DNA from: Thermoanaerobaculia bacterium
GTDB taxonomy: Bacteria; Acidobacteriota; Thermoanaerobaculia; Multivoradales; JAHEKO01
Assembly (NCBI GenBank): GCA_945787575.1
Contig: CALZKB010000055.1
Span: 1 to 43,789, forward strand
Direction: 5' to 3'
DNA: 43,789 nt
Below, one piece after another: positions 30,682 to 39,292 of this stretch. Under the pieces are notes generated by a model that made no database searches, was not told the origin of the DNA, and worked only from the letters and a program-made list of their open reading frames with translations. The position numbers were made by a program, and so were the translations under genes. The stretch's first letter is position 1. Each line of letters opens with the position of its first letter.

Positions 30682-32016
30682 ATGCGACTCTCACGCCCGG
30701 CGTCATCGCTCATGTTGCTGCTCGGTCTCGCGCATACTCCAGCGCTACGAGCGGACGAGCGAGCGCCTTCGTCGAAGATCGAGCGCCGGTTGGTCGCTGC
30801 CGTCGAAGAGTCTCGAGACCGAGCGCTGGCGCTCCTGCAGACCACCGTCGACGTCAACAGCGGCACTCTGAACTTCGCGGGGGTTCGCCGGGTTGGCCGG
30901 CTCTTCGCCGCCGAGCTCGAGGAACTCGGCTTCTCGACTCGCTGGGTCGACGGCGAGCCGTTCCAACGAGCCGGTCACCTCGTCGCCGAGCGCGCAGGCG
31001 ACGGGCCCCACGTGCTCCTGATCGGTCATCTCGACACGGTGTTCGAGCCCGACAGTCCCTTTCAGCGCTACGAGAAGCTCGGTGAGCGTGAGGCGCGCGG
31101 TCCCGGGGTCACCGACATGAAGGGCGGCAACGTCGTCATGATCCAGGCGCTCCGAGCCTTGGCCGAAGTCGGGGTGCTCGACGACCTTCGGCTCACCGTC
31201 GTGCTCACCGGAGACGAGGAACGAAGCGGGCGCCCGCTCGCCCGCGCCCGCGCCGCACTGATCGAACCGGCAAGAAGCGCCGACTTCGCCATCGGCTTCG
31301 AGGACGGGGACTCCGATCCGACAACCGCCGTCATCGCCCGCCGCGGGTCCAGCTCGTGGCAGCTCACGGTCTCCGGCGTCTCCTCTCATTCCTCCCAGAT
31401 CTTCCAAGAGGAGATCGGCGCCGGCGCCATCTACGAGGCGTCGCGGATCCTCACCGAGTTCTACCGCCGACTCGCCTCGTTGCCCAACCTGACTTTCAAT
31501 CCGGGCGTCATTCTGGGCGGCAGCCAGGTCGATTTCGACGCCGGACAGGCGCGGGGCACCGCTTTCGGCAAGAACAACGTCGTCGCCGAGCGGGCGATCG
31601 TGACCGGCGACATTCGGGCGGTCTCGCCGGAGCAGCACCGCGAGGCTGTGGCAGCGATGCAGGCGATCGTCGCCGACTCGCTGCCCAGAACCTCGGCGGA
31701 GCTCACCTTTTCGGACGGCTACCCGCCCATGCCGCCGAGCGAAGGCAATCGCCTGCTCCTCGAGCTCTACGACGCGGTCAGCCGTGATCTCGGCTACGGG
31801 CCGGTCGCCGCGGTCGACCCCCGCAAGGCCGGTGCAGCCGACGTCTCCTTCGTCGCCGAGCTGGTACCGCAAGTGATCGACGGCGTCGGCCTTATGGGAC
31901 GCGGCGGCCACACGGTCGGCGAAGTGGCCGATCTCACCACTTTGCCGATGCAGACGGCGCGCGCCGCGGTGCTGCTCTATCGCCTGAGCCGCTCCGCCCC
32001 TCGGTTTCGCGGGTGA
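30682..32016 (+). CDS. M20-family metallopeptidase (glutamate carboxypeptidase-like), secreted
   Basis: 444 residues from the ATG at 30682 (GTAGGGA upstream), with a signal peptide (ASSLMLLLGLAHTPALRADE). Metal-site motifs of the M20 family are VLLIGHLDTVFE (His, then general-base region), GPGVTDMKGGNVVM (bridging Asp), LTGDEERSG (catalytic Glu pair), GFEDGDSD, and GLMGRGGHTVGEVADL near the end (last metal His). The lid/dimer domain runs about 195-310. The closest well-known relative by motif is carboxypeptidase G2, which removes C-terminal glutamate, but the substrate cannot be settled. Its stop codon lies inside the inverted repeat at 32012-32027 that precedes the ABC operon. Confidence 0.9.
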   Translation: MRLSRPASSLMLLLGLAHTPALRADERAPSSKIERRLVAAVEESRDRALALLQTTVDVNSGTLNFAGVRRVGRLFAAELEELGFSTRWVDGEPFQRAGHLVAERAGDGPHVLLIGHLDTVFEPDSPFQRYEKLGEREARGPGVTDMKGGNVVMIQALRALAEVGVLDDLRLTVVLTGDEERSGRPLARARAALIEPARSADFAIGFEDGDSDPTTAVIARRGSSSWQLTVSGVSSHSSQIFQEEIGAGAIYEASRILTEFYRRLASLPNLTFNPGVILGGSQVDFDAGQARGTAFGKNNVVAERAIVTGDIRAVSPEQHREAVAAMQAIVADSLPRTSAELTFSDGYPPMPPSEGNRLLLELYDAVSRDLGYGPVAAVDPRKAGAADVSFVAELVPQVIDGVGLMGRGGHTVGEVADLTTLPMQTARAAVLLYRLSRSAPRFRG

Positions 32017-32040
32017 CAACTGTCACCTGAGATTGGTGAC
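32012..32040. promoter_or_regulatory. candidate operator: perfect 7-2-7 inverted repeat plus third half-site
   Basis: GGTGACA (32012-32018), AC, TGTCACC (32021-32027) is a perfect inverted repeat. A further GGTGAC lies at 32035-32040. It is 62-90 bases upstream of the ABC ATPase start (SD GAAGGAGG). The last gene of the operon is a NarL/DesR-type regulator, a family that binds paired heptamers with a 2-base gap in the classic NarL case. Autoregulation is inferred. Confidence 0.6.
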
Positions 32041-32101
32041 GATCGGCCCTGCCGCGAGCGACCTCGCCGTCCGACAATGAGGCTGTCCGAAGGAGGCCCT
32101 C

Positions 32102-33052
32102 ATGTCGCACCCTCGATTCTCCGCAACTCCCTCATCCGCCCCTCCCCCTGCCGCTCGGCTGCTGGGGGCGGTCAAGCGCTACGGCGAGGTCACCGCTCTC
32201 GCCGGGGTCGATCTCCAGCTGCGAGCCGGTGAAGTCACCGCCCTACTCGGCCCCAACGGGGCGGGCAAGACCACCGCCGTCCGCTGCCTGCTCGGGTTGA
32301 CCCGTCCCGACGAGGGGCATGTCGAGCTGCTCGACGGCGATCCCCTCGATCGATCCCGGCGAATGCGCACGGGAGCGATGATGCAGATCTCGAGCGTCCC
32401 GCCGACCCTCTCGGTTCGCGAGCACATCGAGCTGTTCTCGTCCTACTATCCGGCGCCGCTGCCGCTGTCTGAAATCTTGGACGCGGCCGGACTCTCGGAG
32501 ATCGCAGACCGGCACTACGGCAAGCTGTCGGGTGGCCAGTGCCAGCGGCTGCTCTTCGCCCTGGCGGTCTGCGGCAATCCCGAGCTCTTGTTCCTCGACG
32601 AACCGACCGTCGGACTCGACGTCTCCAGCCGCCGAGCCTTCTGGGATCACATCCGCGGACTGGTATCGCAAGGCCGGACCGTGCTCCTGACGACCCACTA
32701 CCTGGAAGAGGCCGATGCGCTGGCGGATCGCATCGTCGTGATCGATCACGGCCGGATCGTCGCCGACGGCTCGCCGGCGGAGATCAAGGCCCGGGCGGCG
32801 GCTCGACGAATCCGCTGTCGCACCCAGCTCGATGCTTCCGCGATCGAGGCCCTGCCCGATGTCGAGCGCGTCCAACATGACGGACCGATCTTCGAAATCT
32901 TGACCGCCCGCGCCGAACCGGTGCTACGAGAGCTTCTCGATCGGGACGCCGATCTCGCCGACCTCGAGGTGACCGGTGCCGGGCTCGAGGAGGCTTTCTT
33001 GTCGCTGACTCGTGCCGCCGGTGAACCAAACTTCGAGGAAGGAGCCGCCTGA
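32102..33052 (+). CDS. ABC-2 type transporter ATP-binding protein
   Basis: 316 residues behind GAAGGAGG. Motifs are Walker A (LLGPNGAGKTTAVRCLLG), Q-loop (AMMQISSVPPTLSVREHIEL), signature (KLSGGQCQRLLFALAVCG), Walker B (LLFLDEPTVGLD), and H-loop (LLTTHYLEEADALADRIVVI). The C-terminal 80 residues resemble the regulatory tail of drug- and antibiotic-exporting ATPases (DrrA-like). Its stop overlaps the permease start region (33052), so the two are coupled. With the DesK/DesR pair downstream it probably exports a lipid-active or toxic compound. The substrate is unknown. Confidence 0.93.
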   Translation: MSHPRFSATPSSAPPPAARLLGAVKRYGEVTALAGVDLQLRAGEVTALLGPNGAGKTTAVRCLLGLTRPDEGHVELLDGDPLDRSRRMRTGAMMQISSVPPTLSVREHIELFSSYYPAPLPLSEILDAAGLSEIADRHYGKLSGGQCQRLLFALAVCGNPELLFLDEPTVGLDVSSRRAFWDHIRGLVSQGRTVLLTTHYLEEADALADRIVVIDHGRIVADGSPAEIKARAAARRIRCRTQLDASAIEALPDVERVQHDGPIFEILTARAEPVLRELLDRDADLADLEVTGAGLEEAFLSLTRAAGEPNFEEGAA

Positions 33053-33852
33053 TGAGTCTCGCGCCCGCCGCGTCGGCCGAAACGCCGAGCCCTCGCCCCA
33101 ATCTGTTCAGAATCTACCGGCTCGAAGCCAAGCTCGAGTTCTTGAAGGTGCTCCGTCTGCCGGCATTCGCTATTCCGACGATCGCCTTTCCGGTGCTCTT
33201 CTACGTCTTCTTCGGGCTCACCTTCACGCCGCCCGGTGGTTTCAACATGGCCCAGTATCTGCTCGCCACCTACGGCGCGTTCGGGGTGATCGGGGCGTCG
33301 CTGTTCGGCTTTGGCGTCGGCGTGGCGATCGAGCGCGGGCAGGGTTGGATGCTGCTGAAACGGGCGAGTCCGGCGCCGTCCGGCGCCTATTTCGCGGCCA
33401 AGATCGTCATGGCGCTGCTGTTCAGCGGGATCATCGTCTCCCTTCTCTACACGCTTGGGGCCGTCTTCGGCGCCATCGAGATGTCCGGCGGCCGCTGGGC
33501 GCTGTTGGCCGCCAGCCATCTGCTCGGCAGCGTTCCGTTCTGCGCCATGGGTCTCGCCATCGGCTACTTCGCTGGTCCCAACTCGGCGCCGGCGATCGTC
33601 AATCTGATCTACCTGCCGATGGCGTTTCTCTCGGGCCTCTGGCTTCCGATCCAGATCCTCCCGACCTTTATCCAGAAGGTCGCGATGGCGCTGCCCGCTT
33701 ACCACTTTGCACAAGTGGCATTGAAAACCGTCGGCTCGGATGCAGGCCAACCGCTCTCCTTTCACCTCGGCTACCTCGCCATCTTCTCCGTCGTCTGCCT
33801 AGTACTCGCGGGCGTCGGTTATCGTCGCGATAAGGACATGACCTATGGTTGA
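33052..33852 (+). CDS. ABC-2 type transporter permease
   Basis: 266 residues with six hydrophobic helices (AIPTIAFPVLFYVFFGLTF, LLATYGAFGVIGASLFGFGV, AAKIVMALLFSGIIVSLLY, LGSVPFCAMGLAIGYFAG, PAIVNLIYLPMAFLSGLWLP, LAIFSVVCLVLAGVGY), the standard topology of ABC-2 exporters. RLEAKLEFLKVLRLPAF is the cytoplasmic coupling helix. PTFIQKVAMALPAYHFAQVA before the last helix is the family's conserved segment. It starts at the ATG at 33052, sharing one base with the ATPase stop, and overlaps the next gene by eight bases. It forms the membrane pore for the ATPase encoded upstream. Confidence 0.92.
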   Translation: MSLAPAASAETPSPRPNLFRIYRLEAKLEFLKVLRLPAFAIPTIAFPVLFYVFFGLTFTPPGGFNMAQYLLATYGAFGVIGASLFGFGVGVAIERGQGWMLLKRASPAPSGAYFAAKIVMALLFSGIIVSLLYTLGAVFGAIEMSGGRWALLAASHLLGSVPFCAMGLAIGYFAGPNSAPAIVNLIYLPMAFLSGLWLPIQILPTFIQKVAMALPAYHFAQVALKTVGSDAGQPLSFHLGYLAIFSVVCLVLAGVGYRRDKDMTYG

Positions 33853-35629
33853 TCTCAAGACTGCACGCCTTCTCGGTTGCCTAGGCCTGCTTCTCGCCTC
33901 GGTAGTCGGCGCCGACACGCTCGCCATCACCGACGTTCGGCTCTTCGACGGCGAAACGCTCATCGAGGACGCTACGGTGGTCGTCCGCGACGGTCTGATC
34001 GCCGCGGTCGGGCCTCAGGTCGCCGTGCCAGCCGGCGCCGAGGTGCTCTCGCGGCCGGGGTCAACGCTCCTCCCCGGCTTGATCGACAGTCACGGTCACT
34101 CCTGGGGTGACTCTCTCGAGCGCGCCGCGGTCTGGGGGGTCACGACCGTGATCGACATGTTCACGACTCCCGACTTCGCGAGCGCAAGACGGGCGGAACA
34201 GGCCGATGCGGCGGCGCACGATCGAGCCGATCTCGTCTCCGCTGGTGTTCTCGCCACCGCGCCGGGCGGTCACGGCACCCAGTTCGGGGTCGAGATTCCA
34301 ACCCTCGTCTCGCCTGACGAAGCCGATGCCTGGGTCGCCGGGCGGGTCGCCGAAGGTTCGGACTTCATCAAGATCGTGCTCGAAGACGGAACCCTCATCG
34401 GGCGCCCGCTCCCGACCCTCGACGCCCCCACCTTCACCGCCGTCACCAGAGCGGCTCAACAGAGGGGCAAGCTGGCGGTCGCCCATGTCACCACCTTGAA
34501 GATGGCCGAGGCCGCCCTCGCCGCCGGTGTAGACGGGTTGGTCCATCTTTTCCGCGACGAGACAGTTCCCGAGGACTGGCTTCGCCGGGCTGCCGCAGCC
34601 GGTCTCTTCATCGTGCCGACGCTCACGGTGCTCGAGAGCACCACCGGCGCCCCTTCAGGCCGGTCGCTGACCGAGGACCCTCGGCTCGAGCGATGGCTGA
34701 CTCCGGCCGAGCGCGGCGGCCTGACCCGGAGCTTCCCGCCCCGCGAGGGGGCCTCCCTCGCGGCCGCCAAGCGCAGCATAGTCCTGCTGCGCGACGCGGG
34801 AGTGCCGCTCCTGGCCGGCACCGACGCCCCGAACCCCGGCACTACGCACGGCGCCAGCATGCATCGCGAGCTCGAACTGCTGGTGGGCGCGGGTCTCACC
34901 CCGGCGGAAGCGCTCGAAGCGGCGACCTCCGTACCGGCGGACGTCTTCGGCCTGACCGATCGCGGCCGGATCGAGGTCGGGCGGCACGCCGACCTGCTTC
35001 TGGTGGATGGCGATCCGCTCGCCGACATCACCGCGACCCGATCGATCGCGACCGTCTGGAAGGCCGGCGTCGCGGTGGAGCGGCCCGAGCACCACTCGAC
35101 GGCAATCGCGTCGAGAGCGGTCGTCGACGGACCGGTCGCCGGTTTCGACTCGGGCGAGCTGGCGGCGGCGGCCGGCTTCGGCTGGGTCGAATCCACCGAC
35201 TCGATGATGGGCGGCAAGTCCATCGTCAGCCTCGAGATCCGGGACGATGGAGCGGGTGGCACTCCGCACTCGTTGTTGCTCACCGGTGAGATCCGGAGCG
35301 GTTTCGCCTTCCCTTGGGCCGGCGCCATGTACTTCCCCGGCTCGGCACCGATGACTCCGACGAATCTGTCCGGCTCGTCGGCGCTGGCGTTCCAGGTCCG
35401 CGGCGACCCCGGCACCTATCGGGTGATGATGTTCGCCGAGAGCCTCGGGCAGATGCCTTCGCAACAGACCTTCGAGGTGACCGATAGCTGGTCGGAAGTC
35501 GTGCTCGAGCTCGCGAAGTTTCCGGGAGTCGACCCGGCCGGCGCCACCGGCATCCTGTGGACGGCCGGTCCTGCCACCGGCCCCTTTCGGCTCCAGATCG
35601 ACCAGATCGAGCTGCGCTCGGTAGACTGA
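33845..35629 (+). CDS. amidohydrolase-family enzyme fused to a C-terminal CIA30-like domain
   Basis: 594 residues with a signal peptide (LLGCLGLLLASVVGADTLA). Residues about 25-420 form an amidohydrolase domain: LLPGLIDSHGHSWGD (metal H-x-H), FIKIVLEDG (probable bridging Lys), LAVAHVTT and GLVHLFRDE (metal His), LLAGTDAPNPGTTHG (metal Asp), then RGRIEVGRHADLLLVDGDPL. Residues about 430-594 (FGWVESTDSMMGGKSIVSLE, GTYRVMMFAESLG, LQIDQIEL) match the CIA30 domain, a beta-sandwich first known from complex I assembly. The fusion is exported, so the CIA30 part cannot be a respiratory chaperone here and may bind substrate. It overlaps the permease gene by eight bases, inside the ABC/two-component operon. 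The substrate is unknown. Confidence 0.87.
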   Translation: MVDLKTARLLGCLGLLLASVVGADTLAITDVRLFDGETLIEDATVVVRDGLIAAVGPQVAVPAGAEVLSRPGSTLLPGLIDSHGHSWGDSLERAAVWGVTTVIDMFTTPDFASARRAEQADAAAHDRADLVSAGVLATAPGGHGTQFGVEIPTLVSPDEADAWVAGRVAEGSDFIKIVLEDGTLIGRPLPTLDAPTFTAVTRAAQQRGKLAVAHVTTLKMAEAALAAGVDGLVHLFRDETVPEDWLRRAAAAGLFIVPTLTVLESTTGAPSGRSLTEDPRLERWLTPAERGGLTRSFPPREGASLAAAKRSIVLLRDAGVPLLAGTDAPNPGTTHGASMHRELELLVGAGLTPAEALEAATSVPADVFGLTDRGRIEVGRHADLLLVDGDPLADITATRSIATVWKAGVAVERPEHHSTAIASRAVVDGPVAGFDSGELAAAAGFGWVESTDSMMGGKSIVSLEIRDDGAGGTPHSLLLTGEIRSGFAFPWAGAMYFPGSAPMTPTNLSGSSALAFQVRGDPGTYRVMMFAESLGQMPSQQTFEVTDSWSEVVLELAKFPGVDPAGATGILWTAGPATGPFRLQIDQIELRSVD

Positions 35630-35639
35630 GCCCAGCCCG

Positions 35640-36734
35640 ATGCCCCTGCTTCCCAAGGATCGCTCGCTCGGTTGGACCCGTTACGTCTGGCTGATCTACC
35701 TGGTCCCGATGTTCATCGAACCGGTGGTCACCGGCACGGCGGGCGACTGGCTGATTGCGTCGATATCGGTCGCACTCTTCCTGCCCCTCTACTTCCTCGG
35801 CTTCTGGCTGACCGGCCGGAGACTCCTGGTCCTGATCGGTGTCGTCGTCGCTCTCGCTGGTGTCGTCGCGCCGCTCAACCCGGGTGGCGCGGTCTTCTTC
35901 ATTTACGCCGCGAGCTTCCTCGGCCAGCTCGGCCCTCCGAAGGTCGGCGTCCGCTATCTCGTTCCGATCCTCGCCATTCTCCTGCTCGAGGCGTGGATCG
36001 TCGGATTCCCGCGCTACTCGTGGGTCTGGGCTTCCATCTTCACCCTGATCGTGGGCGGCATCAACATGCACTTTGCAGACGCTGCTCGCCGTCAGGCCAA
36101 GTTGAAACTCGCCCACGACGAAGTGGAGCGGCTGGCGACGATGGCCGAGCGGGAGCGCATCGCCCGCGATCTGCACGACGTGCTCGGTCACACCCTGTCG
36201 CTGATTACGATCAAAGCGGGGCTCGCCGCCCGACTTGCAGACGACGTCCCCCAGCGTGCCGCCCGCGAGATGATCGAGGTCGAGAAGATCTCCCGTTCGG
36301 CTCTCGCCGAGGTTCGGCGCGCGGTTGAGGGCTATCGCTTCCTCTCCCTGGGCGCCGAGGTGGCTCGAGCCAAGGTCGCGTTGGCGGCGGCCGGTGTCGA
36401 ATACACGGTGGAGACCAGTCCGTACGATCTCGACGCCGAGGTCGAGAGTGCCGTCTCGCTGGCGCTGCGCGAAGGGGTGACCAATGTTGTTCGCCACGCC
36501 GGCGCCGATTGGTGCACGATCCGCTTCGGCCAGGCTGACGGGGCGTTCCGGCTGGAGGTCGTCGACGACGGCCGCGGAGGCGCCAGCAAAGAGGGCCACG
36601 GCCTCGCAGGTATGCGCGAACGCATCGAGGCGCTCGGTGGCAACGTCGTCTGCGACCGGTCGCGCGGTACCCGCCTGGCCGTCGTCGTCCCTCTCGGGGA
36701 CAGCCCGGTCACGCAACGCGAGGCGCTCGGCTAG
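35640..36734 (+). CDS. sensor histidine kinase (DesK/LiaS-like, HisKA_3)
   Basis: 364 residues. The N-terminal half has five or six membrane helices with little soluble sensor (YLVPMFIEPVVTGTAG, ALFLPLYFLGFWLTGRRLLV, LLVLIGVVVALAGVVAPL, YLVPILAILLLEAWIVGF), as in DesK-type membrane-state sensors. Next comes a coiled linker, then AERERIARDLHDVLGHTLSL with the phospho-acceptor His. The ATPase domain follows: REGVTNVVRHAG (N-box), VVDDGRGG (G1), GHGLAGMRERIEALGG (G2). It starts 10 bases after the amidohydrolase-gene stop, and its stop TAG overlaps the regulator's GTG. It probably senses envelope or membrane stress linked to the ABC exporter. Confidence 0.93.
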   Translation: MPLLPKDRSLGWTRYVWLIYLVPMFIEPVVTGTAGDWLIASISVALFLPLYFLGFWLTGRRLLVLIGVVVALAGVVAPLNPGGAVFFIYAASFLGQLGPPKVGVRYLVPILAILLLEAWIVGFPRYSWVWASIFTLIVGGINMHFADAARRQAKLKLAHDEVERLATMAERERIARDLHDVLGHTLSLITIKAGLAARLADDVPQRAAREMIEVEKISRSALAEVRRAVEGYRFLSLGAEVARAKVALAAAGVEYTVETSPYDLDAEVESAVSLALREGVTNVVRHAGADWCTIRFGQADGAFRLEVVDDGRGGASKEGHGLAGMRERIEALGGNVVCDRSRGTRLAVVVPLGDSPVTQREALG

Positions 36735-37336
36735 TGATCAGGATTCTCGTCGCCGAGGATCAGGCGATGGTGCAGGGAGCGCTAGCGGCTCTTCTGGAGA
36801 CCGAATCCGATCTCCAGGTCGTAGCGCTAGCCGACGACGGCGACGACGCGCTGGCGCTCGCAGCGGAGCACGATCCGGACGTCGTGGTCACCGACATCGA
36901 GATGCCGCACCGGACCGGCCTCGAACTGGCGACCGAGCTCAAGCGGCGAGGGCCGCGCCCGCGAATCCTCATTCTCACCACCTTCGCTCGGCCCGGCTAC
37001 TTGCGCCGGGCGCTCGAGGCCGGAGCTTCGGGATACCTGCTCAAGGACTCGCCGGCCGAGGAACTAGCCGAGGCGATCCGCCAGGTCCATGCGGGCGGAC
37101 GAGCCATCGACCCGGAGCTCGCGGCCGAAGCTTGGGGCGAATCCGATCCCCTGACCGACCGCGAGCGCCAGGTCGTACGGCTCGCCGGCGAGGGCATGAC
37201 CGGGGCCAAGATCGCCGCCGAGCTCCACCTCTCGGAAGGGACCGTCCGCAACTACCTGTCGGAGGCGATCAACAAGCTTGGTGCCTCGAATCGGATCGAG
37301 GCCGCACGGTTGGCGCGCCGGCGCGGCTGGCTGTAG
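36734..37336 (+). CDS. NarL/FixJ-family response regulator (DesR-like)
   Basis: 200 residues from a GTG that overlaps the kinase stop (TAGTG). The receiver domain is complete: acidic pair in LVAEDQAMVQ, phospho-accepting Asp in VVVTDIEMPHRTG, Thr in ILILTTFARPG, Lys in GYLLKDSPAEEL. The output domain is a LuxR-type helix-turn-helix (LTDRERQVVRLAGEGMTGAK, IAAELHLSEGTVRNYLSEAI). It is the phosphorylated partner of the preceding kinase and probably regulates the whole operon through the inverted repeat at 32012-32040. No other target site was found in the window. Confidence 0.94.
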   Translation: MIRILVAEDQAMVQGALAALLETESDLQVVALADDGDDALALAAEHDPDVVVTDIEMPHRTGLELATELKRRGPRPRILILTTFARPGYLRRALEAGASGYLLKDSPAEELAEAIRQVHAGGRAIDPELAAEAWGESDPLTDRERQVVRLAGEGMTGAKIAAELHLSEGTVRNYLSEAINKLGASNRIEAARLARRRGWL

Positions 37337-37342
37337 CGCCTC

Positions 37343-39292
37343 TCAACGACCCACTCCGCCGGAAGCCCTCCGCAGGTCGAGATCGGGGGCGAGCAGTTCC
37401 GCCCGGGTGAGGGCGTCGGCTGCGCGCTCGCGATCGCCCCGCTGTTGGAGAAGGAGGCCGAGCTTCTGCCAGCTCACTCCATCCGACGGCCAACGCCGGG
37501 TCAACGCTTCGAGTCCAGCAAGCGCCATGTCGACTCGTCCGGCGCGCTCGGCGAGATCGACGCGGAGTCGCCACGGATGCTCGGCGGTCGGGAACGCCTC
37601 GATCACGACCTGGGTGTCCTCGAGGGAGCCGGCCACGTCGCCTCGATCGAGACGGATGCGCGCCCTCGCGAGGCGGGCCGCGGGGTGAGTGGGATCGAGA
37701 GCGAGCGCGTCACCGAAGGCGGCCAGCGCGCCGTCGAGGTCGCCCGTGGCGAGCAGTACGAGGCCGCGCGACTGGTGGAGGTCGGGGCGCTCGAGTACCG
37801 GCGAGAGCGGCGCCTGCGGCGCCGAGGTGACCGCCTCCGCCGTGCCGGGCGCGGGGAGGGCCGCGAACCTCGCGGCAGCCTCTTCGACCCGACCCATCGT
37901 CGCGAGACCCATGCCGACGACCGCATTCTCCCAGCGACGACCGGCAGCGGTGTCGAGTGCCTCGGCGATGCGCTCGCGGTCCCAAAGGCGCAGCGGTGCC
38001 TCGCGGTCGCTGAACTGCCGGTGGGAAATCCCGGTCTCCGGGATCGGAATGCGGCGGCGCACCCAATGATCGGCGGAGCGCACGTGGGTGAGATCGAACG
38101 GTTGGCTACGGCGCACGTGACAGTCGACACAGCCGTCGGCGGTACGTGGAGGCTCACCGGTGACCGCCTCGACCGCGAGATCGGCGGGGCGGGTGCAACC
38201 CCGCTCTCGGTGACACTCCTGGCAGCTTGCGTCGAAAGACGTCACTCCTTGCGCCGCGACCCCGCGATGGGGGTCGTGGCAGCTGGCACAGGTCATCCCC
38301 TTCGTCTGCTGGAAACAAGCCGAGAGCGACAACCGTTCGAGCTGACCGACGAATCGGAAGTCGTCCCCGTTCGTCGCGGTCACCAGCACCGGCAGCCGGG
38401 CGGCGAGCGGCGCCGCCAGACTCGGCCCTCGAGCTCGAGCGCCGTGAAGCTCCCAACGCGCTTCGCCTTGCAGATGGCAGCGCGCACAGGTATCGAGCTG
38501 GACGGCGGCGGGCAGCGCGCCGAGAGTCGGCAGACCGTGATCGAGGGCGGTCTCGGTGCCGGCGATCACCGCGAGGTGGTAGTCGGCGCTGCCGTGACAG
38601 GTCGCGCAGCCGAGGCCGCTGAGGTGCTCGAATGCACCACGGCCGAGCGCGTTCGCCGGAAACAGAGTGCCCCCGGCGAGGGGCTCGCCGACGGCCGCTC
38701 CCGGCAGCTCGGACAGCGCTTGGTCGACATGACAGCCGAGACACCCCTCGGTCAGTGCCATGTCGGCCCCCGCTGCCGGCTCCTCCTCCTCGAATGGAGC
38801 GAGAACCAGCTCGCCGCCCATCGTTTCCAACGGGGCGAAGAAGAGACGATCGGTCAGCTCGCCACTGACGACGTCGGCTTCGACGGTCACCCAGGAGTTG
38901 CCGAATCTTCCGGCTCCGATGCGGCCAACGAGGCGCTGACGACGACGCCCGCCGTCTGCTTCGAGGGTGGTGAGCCACGCACCGTCGAGCTCCCGAGAGA
39001 TCTCGTAGCTACGCCCGTTTCCGGGATTCACGACCGACCCCGTCGGGGGCTCGCCAACCGGCCCGACGCTCGCCGCCATGGCGTGCTCGCCGAGAAAGGC
39101 TCGAACGATCCCGGCATGACAACCGGCGCAGCTCTCGAGCGCAACCGGCACTCGGGCGGCGGCGTTCGGCGTCGAGGTCGGCTGGTTCGACCCTCCGTCC
39201 TCCGGTGGCTTCGTCTGGGTGCCCGGCGTCTCGCCTTCGCACGCCCAGAGAGATGCCGCGCAGCAAAGCCCGACGAGTAGACGAGATTTCAT
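37343..39292 (-). CDS. seven-heme c-type cytochrome lipoprotein with C-terminal TPR repeats
   Basis: 649 residues. A lipoprotein signal peptide ends in L-W-A-C (Cys18). Seven C-x-x-C-H heme sites are visible at about residues 55, 184, 229, 269, 335, 357 and 388 (CAGCH, CLGCH, CATCH, CARCH, CASCH, CQECH, CVDCH). From about 455 to 640 there are TPR-like helical pairs (LVLLATGDLDGALAAFGDAL, LALDPTHPAARLARARIRLD, LGLLLQQRGDRERAADALTR). It should be anchored in the outer or inner membrane facing the periplasm and carry electrons or reduce a substrate, while the TPR part binds a partner. No exact named family is recognised. It is convergent with the response regulator (6-base gap) and stands alone. 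Confidence 0.9.
   Translation of the reverse strand: MKSRLLVGLCCAASLWACEGETPGTQTKPPEDGGSNQPTSTPNAAARVPVALESCAGCHAGIVRAFLGEHAMAASVGPVGEPPTGSVVNPGNGRSYEISRELDGAWLTTLEADGGRRRQRLVGRIGAGRFGNSWVTVEADVVSGELTDRLFFAPLETMGGELVLAPFEEEEPAAGADMALTEGCLGCHVDQALSELPGAAVGEPLAGGTLFPANALGRGAFEHLSGLGCATCHGSADYHLAVIAGTETALDHGLPTLGALPAAVQLDTCARCHLQGEARWELHGARARGPSLAAPLAARLPVLVTATNGDDFRFVGQLERLSLSACFQQTKGMTCASCHDPHRGVAAQGVTSFDASCQECHRERGCTRPADLAVEAVTGEPPRTADGCVDCHVRRSQPFDLTHVRSADHWVRRRIPIPETGISHRQFSDREAPLRLWDRERIAEALDTAAGRRWENAVVGMGLATMGRVEEAAARFAALPAPGTAEAVTSAPQAPLSPVLERPDLHQSRGLVLLATGDLDGALAAFGDALALDPTHPAARLARARIRLDRGDVAGSLEDTQVVIEAFPTAEHPWRLRVDLAERAGRVDMALAGLEALTRRWPSDGVSWQKLGLLLQQRGDRERAADALTRAELLAPDLDLRRASGGVGR

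Follow-up and report, generated by a model that had tools for sequence, protein, structure and literature searches.

The DesK/DesR membrane sensor of Bacillus subtilis is well studied; DesR induces des (PMC3996569), and phosphorylated DesR on the des promoter is described as a tetramer (PMC11237406). A four-gene cluster combining ABC genes with a DesKR-like pair is conserved in Firmicutes together with des-like promoter repeats, and YvfU, the regulator of one such system (YvfRS-YvfTU), is able to activate the des promoter (PMC7726353). The pneumococcal system TCS11 is positively autoregulated, and its only specific target is reported to be its own ABC-containing operon; the RR11 motif of this system, ATGACATTTGTCAT-N7-AGTGACA, is called highly similar to the ATGACA-N2-TGTCAT of DesR, and its authors state that it still needs biochemical validation (PMC11034029). 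The DesR/YvfU operator family is already described in Firmicutes; a search of the open-licence literature found no DesR-type operators described outside Firmicutes. NarL of Escherichia coli belongs to the same regulator superfamily, and its sites are inverted repeats with 7-base arms and a 2-base gap, the heptamer being TACYYMT.

The stretch of DNA analysed here (the window) comprises 43,789 nucleotides from a Thermoanaerobaculia bacterium and has a GC content of 67%. Downstream of a palindrome discussed below, five genes lie on one strand (+): an ABC exporter ATPase (32102-33052; PF00005, with DrrA as the best NCBIfam model, below its cut-off), an ABC-2 type permease (33052-33852; PF12698, PF01061), an amidohydrolase with a CIA30-like C-terminal domain (33845-35629), a DesK-like membrane histidine kinase (35640-36734; HisKA_3) and a DesR-like response regulator (36734-37336) with REC and GerE domains and the DNA-binding helix GTVRNYLS. 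The palindrome precedes this operon on the same strand and the last gene encodes a GerE/NarL-type regulator, exactly as originally predicted. The product of a gene on the opposite strand (37343-39292), convergent to the regulator gene, has multihaem-cytochrome-like and TPR regions. The grouping of ABC ATPase, permease, DesK-like kinase and DesR-like regulator is the one seen in YvfRS-YvfTU and TCS11, as is a promoter with an inverted and a direct repeat (PMC7726353, PMC11034029); the window operon differs from both in additionally holding the amidohydrolase. Compared with des, the predicted target is an ABC exporter plus amidohydrolase rather than a desaturase, the host DNA is GC-rich, and the outer bases of the half-sites are GG/CC; the half-site itself is the TGACA-N2-TGTCA of the des promoter (PMC11034029).

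The B. subtilis pair also provides the closest solved relatives of both signalling proteins. The best match of the regulator is DesR (4ldz, E 2.1e-58), and that of the kinase is DesK, the cytoplasmic part aligning to DesK structures with E 1.8e-35; residues 16-124 of the kinase form overlapping hydrophobic stretches. Regulator positions 169-174, 176 and 181 (G T V R N Y, S, K), within or close to the DNA-binding helix, are invariant in 93/93 orthologues and common to DesR, and this residue set is kept together in none of eight paralogues; the helix carrying GTVRNY is taken here to be the recognition helix. The regulator scores 114 bits against the NarL equivalog model NF007935, for which the cut-off is 250, and the window half-site differs from the NarL heptamer; on these two grounds E. 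coli NarL was rejected as the closest family. The original prediction had read a 7-2-7 NarL geometry: the inverted-repeat dimer site stands, while the conserved core is 5-2-5 and the exact relative is DesR/YvfU, not E. coli NarL. A DesR-closest regulator, the same helix, an inverted repeat, a third half-site and an adjacent DesK-like kinase are all found at this locus, and the ABC ATPase and permease in the same operon place it in the YvfRS-type subgroup.

The palindrome, GGTGACA-AC-TGTCACC (GGTGACAACTGTCACC), is perfect and occupies exactly 32012-32027, with its core TGACA-N2-TGTCA at 32014-32025; it had been placed at the stop codon of the upstream M20 peptidase gene, which it does overlap, the TGA (32014-32016) lying within its left arm and the palindrome starting two bases before it. 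A third half-site, GGTGAC, lies seven bases past its end at 32035-32040, as foreseen. In the own genome (5.59 Mb) the palindrome occurs in one place without arm mismatches, in none with one mismatch and in eight with two. That the palindrome is a product of chance, or a transcription terminator ending the M20 gene, is an exceedingly remote prospect. The window holds eight perfect 7-2-7 palindromes; simulation with 100 first-order Markov sequences leads one to expect 6.55 (sd 2.8), and 29 of the simulated sequences contain at least eight; this count is at chance level, so the palindrome alone proves nothing, and bare palindrome statistics were set aside as proof. The overlap with the M20 stop codon would likewise suit a terminator. 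An intrinsic terminator, as a GC-rich hairpin followed by a T run, was nevertheless rejected, since none is present in 31900-32200 and RNA folding is no better than that of shuffled sequences (z -0.89); against both forms of this explanation stands the deep conservation of the site together with a fixed second site and -10 element. Two perfect 8-2-8 palindromes occur elsewhere in the window, at 734 and 21043.

Conservation across orthologous operons is what lifts the palindrome beyond chance. The locus set consists of the best 80 of at least 565 regulator relatives plus 12 short loci (the window's own locus and 11 orthologues sharing 64% identity or more), giving 92 in total. Going by record titles, the loci belong to Acidobacteriota, Gemmatimonadota, Gammaproteobacteria (Lysobacterales and others) and Meiothermus, with one record from Verrucomicrobia. 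An ABC ATPase gene lies within 7 kb upstream of the regulator in 51 of the 92; with L053 and L093, which lack upstream DNA, set aside, 49 operons are testable. The original prediction called for the palindrome before orthologous operons, and 48 of the 49, with the window additional, have TGACA-N2-TGTCA with at most one mismatch no more than 600 bp upstream of the ABC ATPase; these rows are phylogenetically non-independent, because several genera are represented many times (Granulicella and Tahibacter in particular), and the count is inflated to that extent. The 49th operon, from a Gemmatimonadaceae locus (L041), was rejected as a true miss, as it is headed by an amidohydrolase gene and carries the site 2 kb further up, before that gene. 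Conservation centres on the 5-2-5 core and is weak at the outer bases of the arms. The remaining 41 loci, among them the 12 short ones, were examined with a tandem pattern only and give a mixed result; three regulator loci with long upstream DNA (L042, L046, L067) show no tandem site with up to four mismatches, so the linkage of regulator and operator is not universal.

When all 5-gap-5 palindromes with gaps of 0-8 (n=9,216) are ranked over the 50 upstream regions, the window included, TGACA-2-TGTCA comes first, with at most one mismatch in 49. Ranks 2 and 3 (39 and 34 regions) are shifted versions of the same palindrome and rank 4 (TGACG, gap 2; 23 regions) is a one-base variant of it; the best unrelated palindrome reaches 20/50. 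Nine control patterns with reversed or other half-sites or other gaps match, at up to one mismatch, in 0-1 of the 50 regions compared with 49 for the palindrome.

The DNA between the palindrome and the first gene is predicted to complete a promoter. An in-register alignment of 49 rows contains three conserved blocks: site 1 (positions 0-11), a second site (23-36, TGAC...CACT) and a -10 element (59-64); downstream of site 1, columns above 1 bit are confined to the latter two. In the window, site 2 occupies 32035-32050 (+) as a degenerate dimer site, GGTGACG-AT-CGGCCCT, 23 bp past site 1. The third GGTGAC, originally read as a third half-site, is a direct repeat in the alignment and is better described as the left half of this second site. 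Its T, G and A are kept in 47, 47 and 44 of 49 rows, and its right half is degenerate, most rows having CACT and the window CCCT, like some near relatives (L112, L113, L121). In the window, as in most rows, the direct-repeat TGAC is at +23; in four loci (L103, L147, L182, L183) it is at +22, the latter being the spacing of the RR11 motif as written in PMC11034029. Site 2 is not recognisable in L043 or in L110 and L125, two plasmid operons counted as having site 1. Across positions 38-79 only three columns exceed 0.5 bit, 60 (A in 43/49), 63 (C in 37/49) and 64 (T in 44/49), and these read as a -10 hexamer at 59-64. Its counterpart in the window, GACAAT (32073-32078, +), keeps the spacing from site 1 found in the orthologues and is followed by a probable ribosome binding site for the first gene, AAGGAGG (32090-32096, +), and by the ATG at 32102. 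Among 24 held-out promoter rows, from which one apparently duplicated record (G041, matching L050) was excluded, 21 have the 23-bp spacing; of these, 19 carry the -10 A and 19 the -10 T.

With the transcription start placed seven bases after the hexamer, sites 1 and 2 would be centred at about -65.5 and about -42.5, respectively. The position -42.5 is the classical one for a class II activator, and a consensus scan for a sigma-70 -35/-10 pair at the window promoter found none; the predicted layout is that of class II activation. The same operator, 23-bp spacing and -10 also precede fatty-acid desaturase genes on two Bacillaceae plasmids (Niallia and B. licheniformis), a des-type layout shared with the window from operator to -10. 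As motif, family and desaturase-promoter layout all match the DesR system, the predicted site is best called a DesR-type operator.

We consider it highly likely that this tandem operator forms the operon promoter, and that the operon's own phosphorylated regulator binds there and activates the operon, itself included. The phosphorylated regulator (36734-37336) would bind site 1 as a dimer, and a second dimer would fill the weaker site 2, probably held by contact with the first; the two predicted sites can be likened to the tetrameric phosphorylated DesR on its promoter (PMC11237406). The dimer at site 2 would replace the missing -35 element and recruit RNA polymerase to the -10; exporter and amidohydrolase would thereby be switched on together with the kinase/regulator pair, closing a positive autoregulatory loop driven by the DesK-like membrane sensor. 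The sequence, its conservation, the geometry, the link to the regulator and the match of the DNA-binding helix are observations; from the regulator family we infer binding, phosphorylation dependence, cooperativity and activation rather than repression, and likewise a signal in the form of membrane or envelope perturbation. Autorepression is common among regulators in general, and the site could be a true operator of this regulator through which the bound protein blocks the promoter, a reading for which this general precedent speaks. It is considered unlikely: the fixed distance to the -10 puts both sites upstream of the core promoter, not over it, and the consensus scan finds no sigma-70 hexamer pair; furthermore, TCS11 is positively autoregulated (PMC11034029) and DesR is an inducer of its target (PMC3996569).

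Site and regulator were also compared in held-out loci. Ten further regions from relatives were set aside, of which two (L114, L115) are cut by contig ends; the site is present in 8/8 with readable upstream DNA. Copies of the regulator operon also occur on plasmids. From 85 matching plasmid records 17 loci with similar regulators were chosen for diversity; in 12 the site precedes the operon, and these 12 include 9/9 of those whose regulator has an ABC ATPase gene adjacent (Deinococcus, Sphingomonas, Lactobacillales). For L125, one of the nine, the distance is about 1 kb, the site standing ahead of the first gene of the operon. Four plasmid loci (L108, L111, L127, L128) encode the DesR-type helix and no site was found there, and a fifth with this helix (L132) has no upstream site, only one downstream of the regulator. 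Two Deinococcus plasmids (L123, L133) carry two operators per operon, one ahead of the ATPase gene and the other ahead of the permease gene; L123 has a TnpB gene between permease and kinase. At eight loci of non-orthologous NarL-family regulators, with 1.5 kb flanks, the site is found in none.

Within the window's order, 72 genomes were scanned with a strict tandem pattern of 16 set bases, allowing one mismatch. It occurs in the own genome and in 13/19 other regulator carriers compared with 0/52 non-carriers (Fisher p 4.7e-10, for genomes that are not phylogenetically independent and with one genus supplying many of the 52); the same division is seen on 40 of the 72 genomes, and a reversed control pattern matches in 2/72. 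The six carrier misses comprise three contig cuts (G026, G038, G051, the last apparently a duplicate record of L025), one site with two mismatches (G003) and two with 22-bp spacing (G050, G070). In G029 the tandem match stands before a stand-alone amidohydrolase gene, the ABC operon there being cut. Four of the 20 regulator carriers (G026, G029, G038, G051) lack readable sequence ahead of the ABC operon, and the palindrome is present in 16/16 of the others, the own genome included. The regulator was not found in G001 and G002, which belong to the same genus as the window's genome, G002 being 77% complete.

These counts also weigh on the proposal that the site belongs to another transcription factor, one controlling this operon in many bacteria. 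Such a factor would be compatible with genome G032, where the site is present and no regulator was found, and with the fact that binding by the regulator is a prediction. It is considered very unlikely given the division between carriers and non-carriers, a half-site equal to that reported for DesR (PMC11034029) and a genus, described below, in which no regulator was found and 15/15 stand-alone amidohydrolase copies lack the site at up to one mismatch. The palindrome is very probably the binding site of the operon's own two-component regulator. The original suggestion that the regulator's predicted binding sequence can be read at this locus is thus supported by the orthologous operons, the relatives and the plasmid ABC operons alike, and by the match of site, spacing and DNA-binding helix to DesR.

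In many loci relatives of the window amidohydrolase are encoded between permease and kinase or head the operon, and in two Lysobacter loci the operator precedes an amidohydrolase-kinase-regulator arrangement. Stand-alone copies with their own tandem operator occur in G021 (L146), G029 (L142) and G071 (L148), while a fourth, in regulator carrier G038, has none; the operator is thereby kept at 3/4 stand-alone copies in regulator-bearing genomes. Because it has its own DesR-type operator when encoded elsewhere, the amidohydrolase seems to be a genuine member of the regulon. One genus in which the regulator was not found has 15 stand-alone amidohydrolase genes, and in 15/15 the 500 bp upstream contain no site with up to one mismatch; two of them have a two-mismatch match without a second site. 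In G032 (L147, L184) the amidohydrolase gene is preceded by a perfect palindrome whose second site lies at +22, and no regulator orthologue was found, which may be due to an assembly gap, an orphan site or another regulator.

What is new relative to the Firmicutes systems is the predicted operator conserved in Acidobacteriota, Lysobacterales and Deinococcota, together with the amidohydrolase as a candidate regulon member. This offers a base-level operator prediction for a widespread regulator family in these groups and ties the family to the DesK/DesR sensor, so that its regulon becomes readable from genomes; naming the amidohydrolase as the likely exporter partner would narrow the search for the exported compound. 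It is tentatively proposed, as a possibility on which we would not yet rely, that a DesR-type membrane-stress regulon extends across phyla far from Firmicutes with a Bacillaceae-like promoter architecture (site 1, site 2 at +23, fixed -10), and that a common output there is an exporter and a CIA30-type amidohydrolase jointly expelling and degrading a membrane-active compound, the operator tending to stay with the amidohydrolase when it is encoded outside the operon.

The operator predicts few strict targets. Strict tandem sites number 1-2 per genome in 10/10 genomes scanned, all of them regulator carriers; this is a lower bound as weaker true sites escape the pattern, the ABC operon's own site in two Tahibacter genomes having three mismatches. 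A search of the own genome allowing two palindrome mismatches returns nine places, compared with seven for a control pattern, and gives no informative further targets. The own genome has two fatty-acid desaturase genes; the contigs bearing them are absent from the list of palindrome matches, so no des-like target is seen there among matches with up to two mismatches.

Several other genes in related genomes are led by the operator. In Tahibacter (L198 from G077, L199 from G081) a tandem operator precedes a gene for an HlyD-type membrane-fusion protein, which suggests a second efflux system in the predicted regulon. A second ABC ATPase-permease pair with its own perfect tandem operator is present in G071 (L186, contig C803), on a contig other than that of the kinase and regulator. 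Three Terriglobus-like loci, L066 (4008-4084), L045 and L085, carry two divergent operators, the second of which in L066 and L045 faces a gene for an outer-membrane beta-barrel protein with a CarboxypepD_reg domain. The operator also leads a gene for a DUF2306 protein and, at L087 (7794-9872), one whose product has an acyltransferase-3 domain fused to an ABC ATPase.
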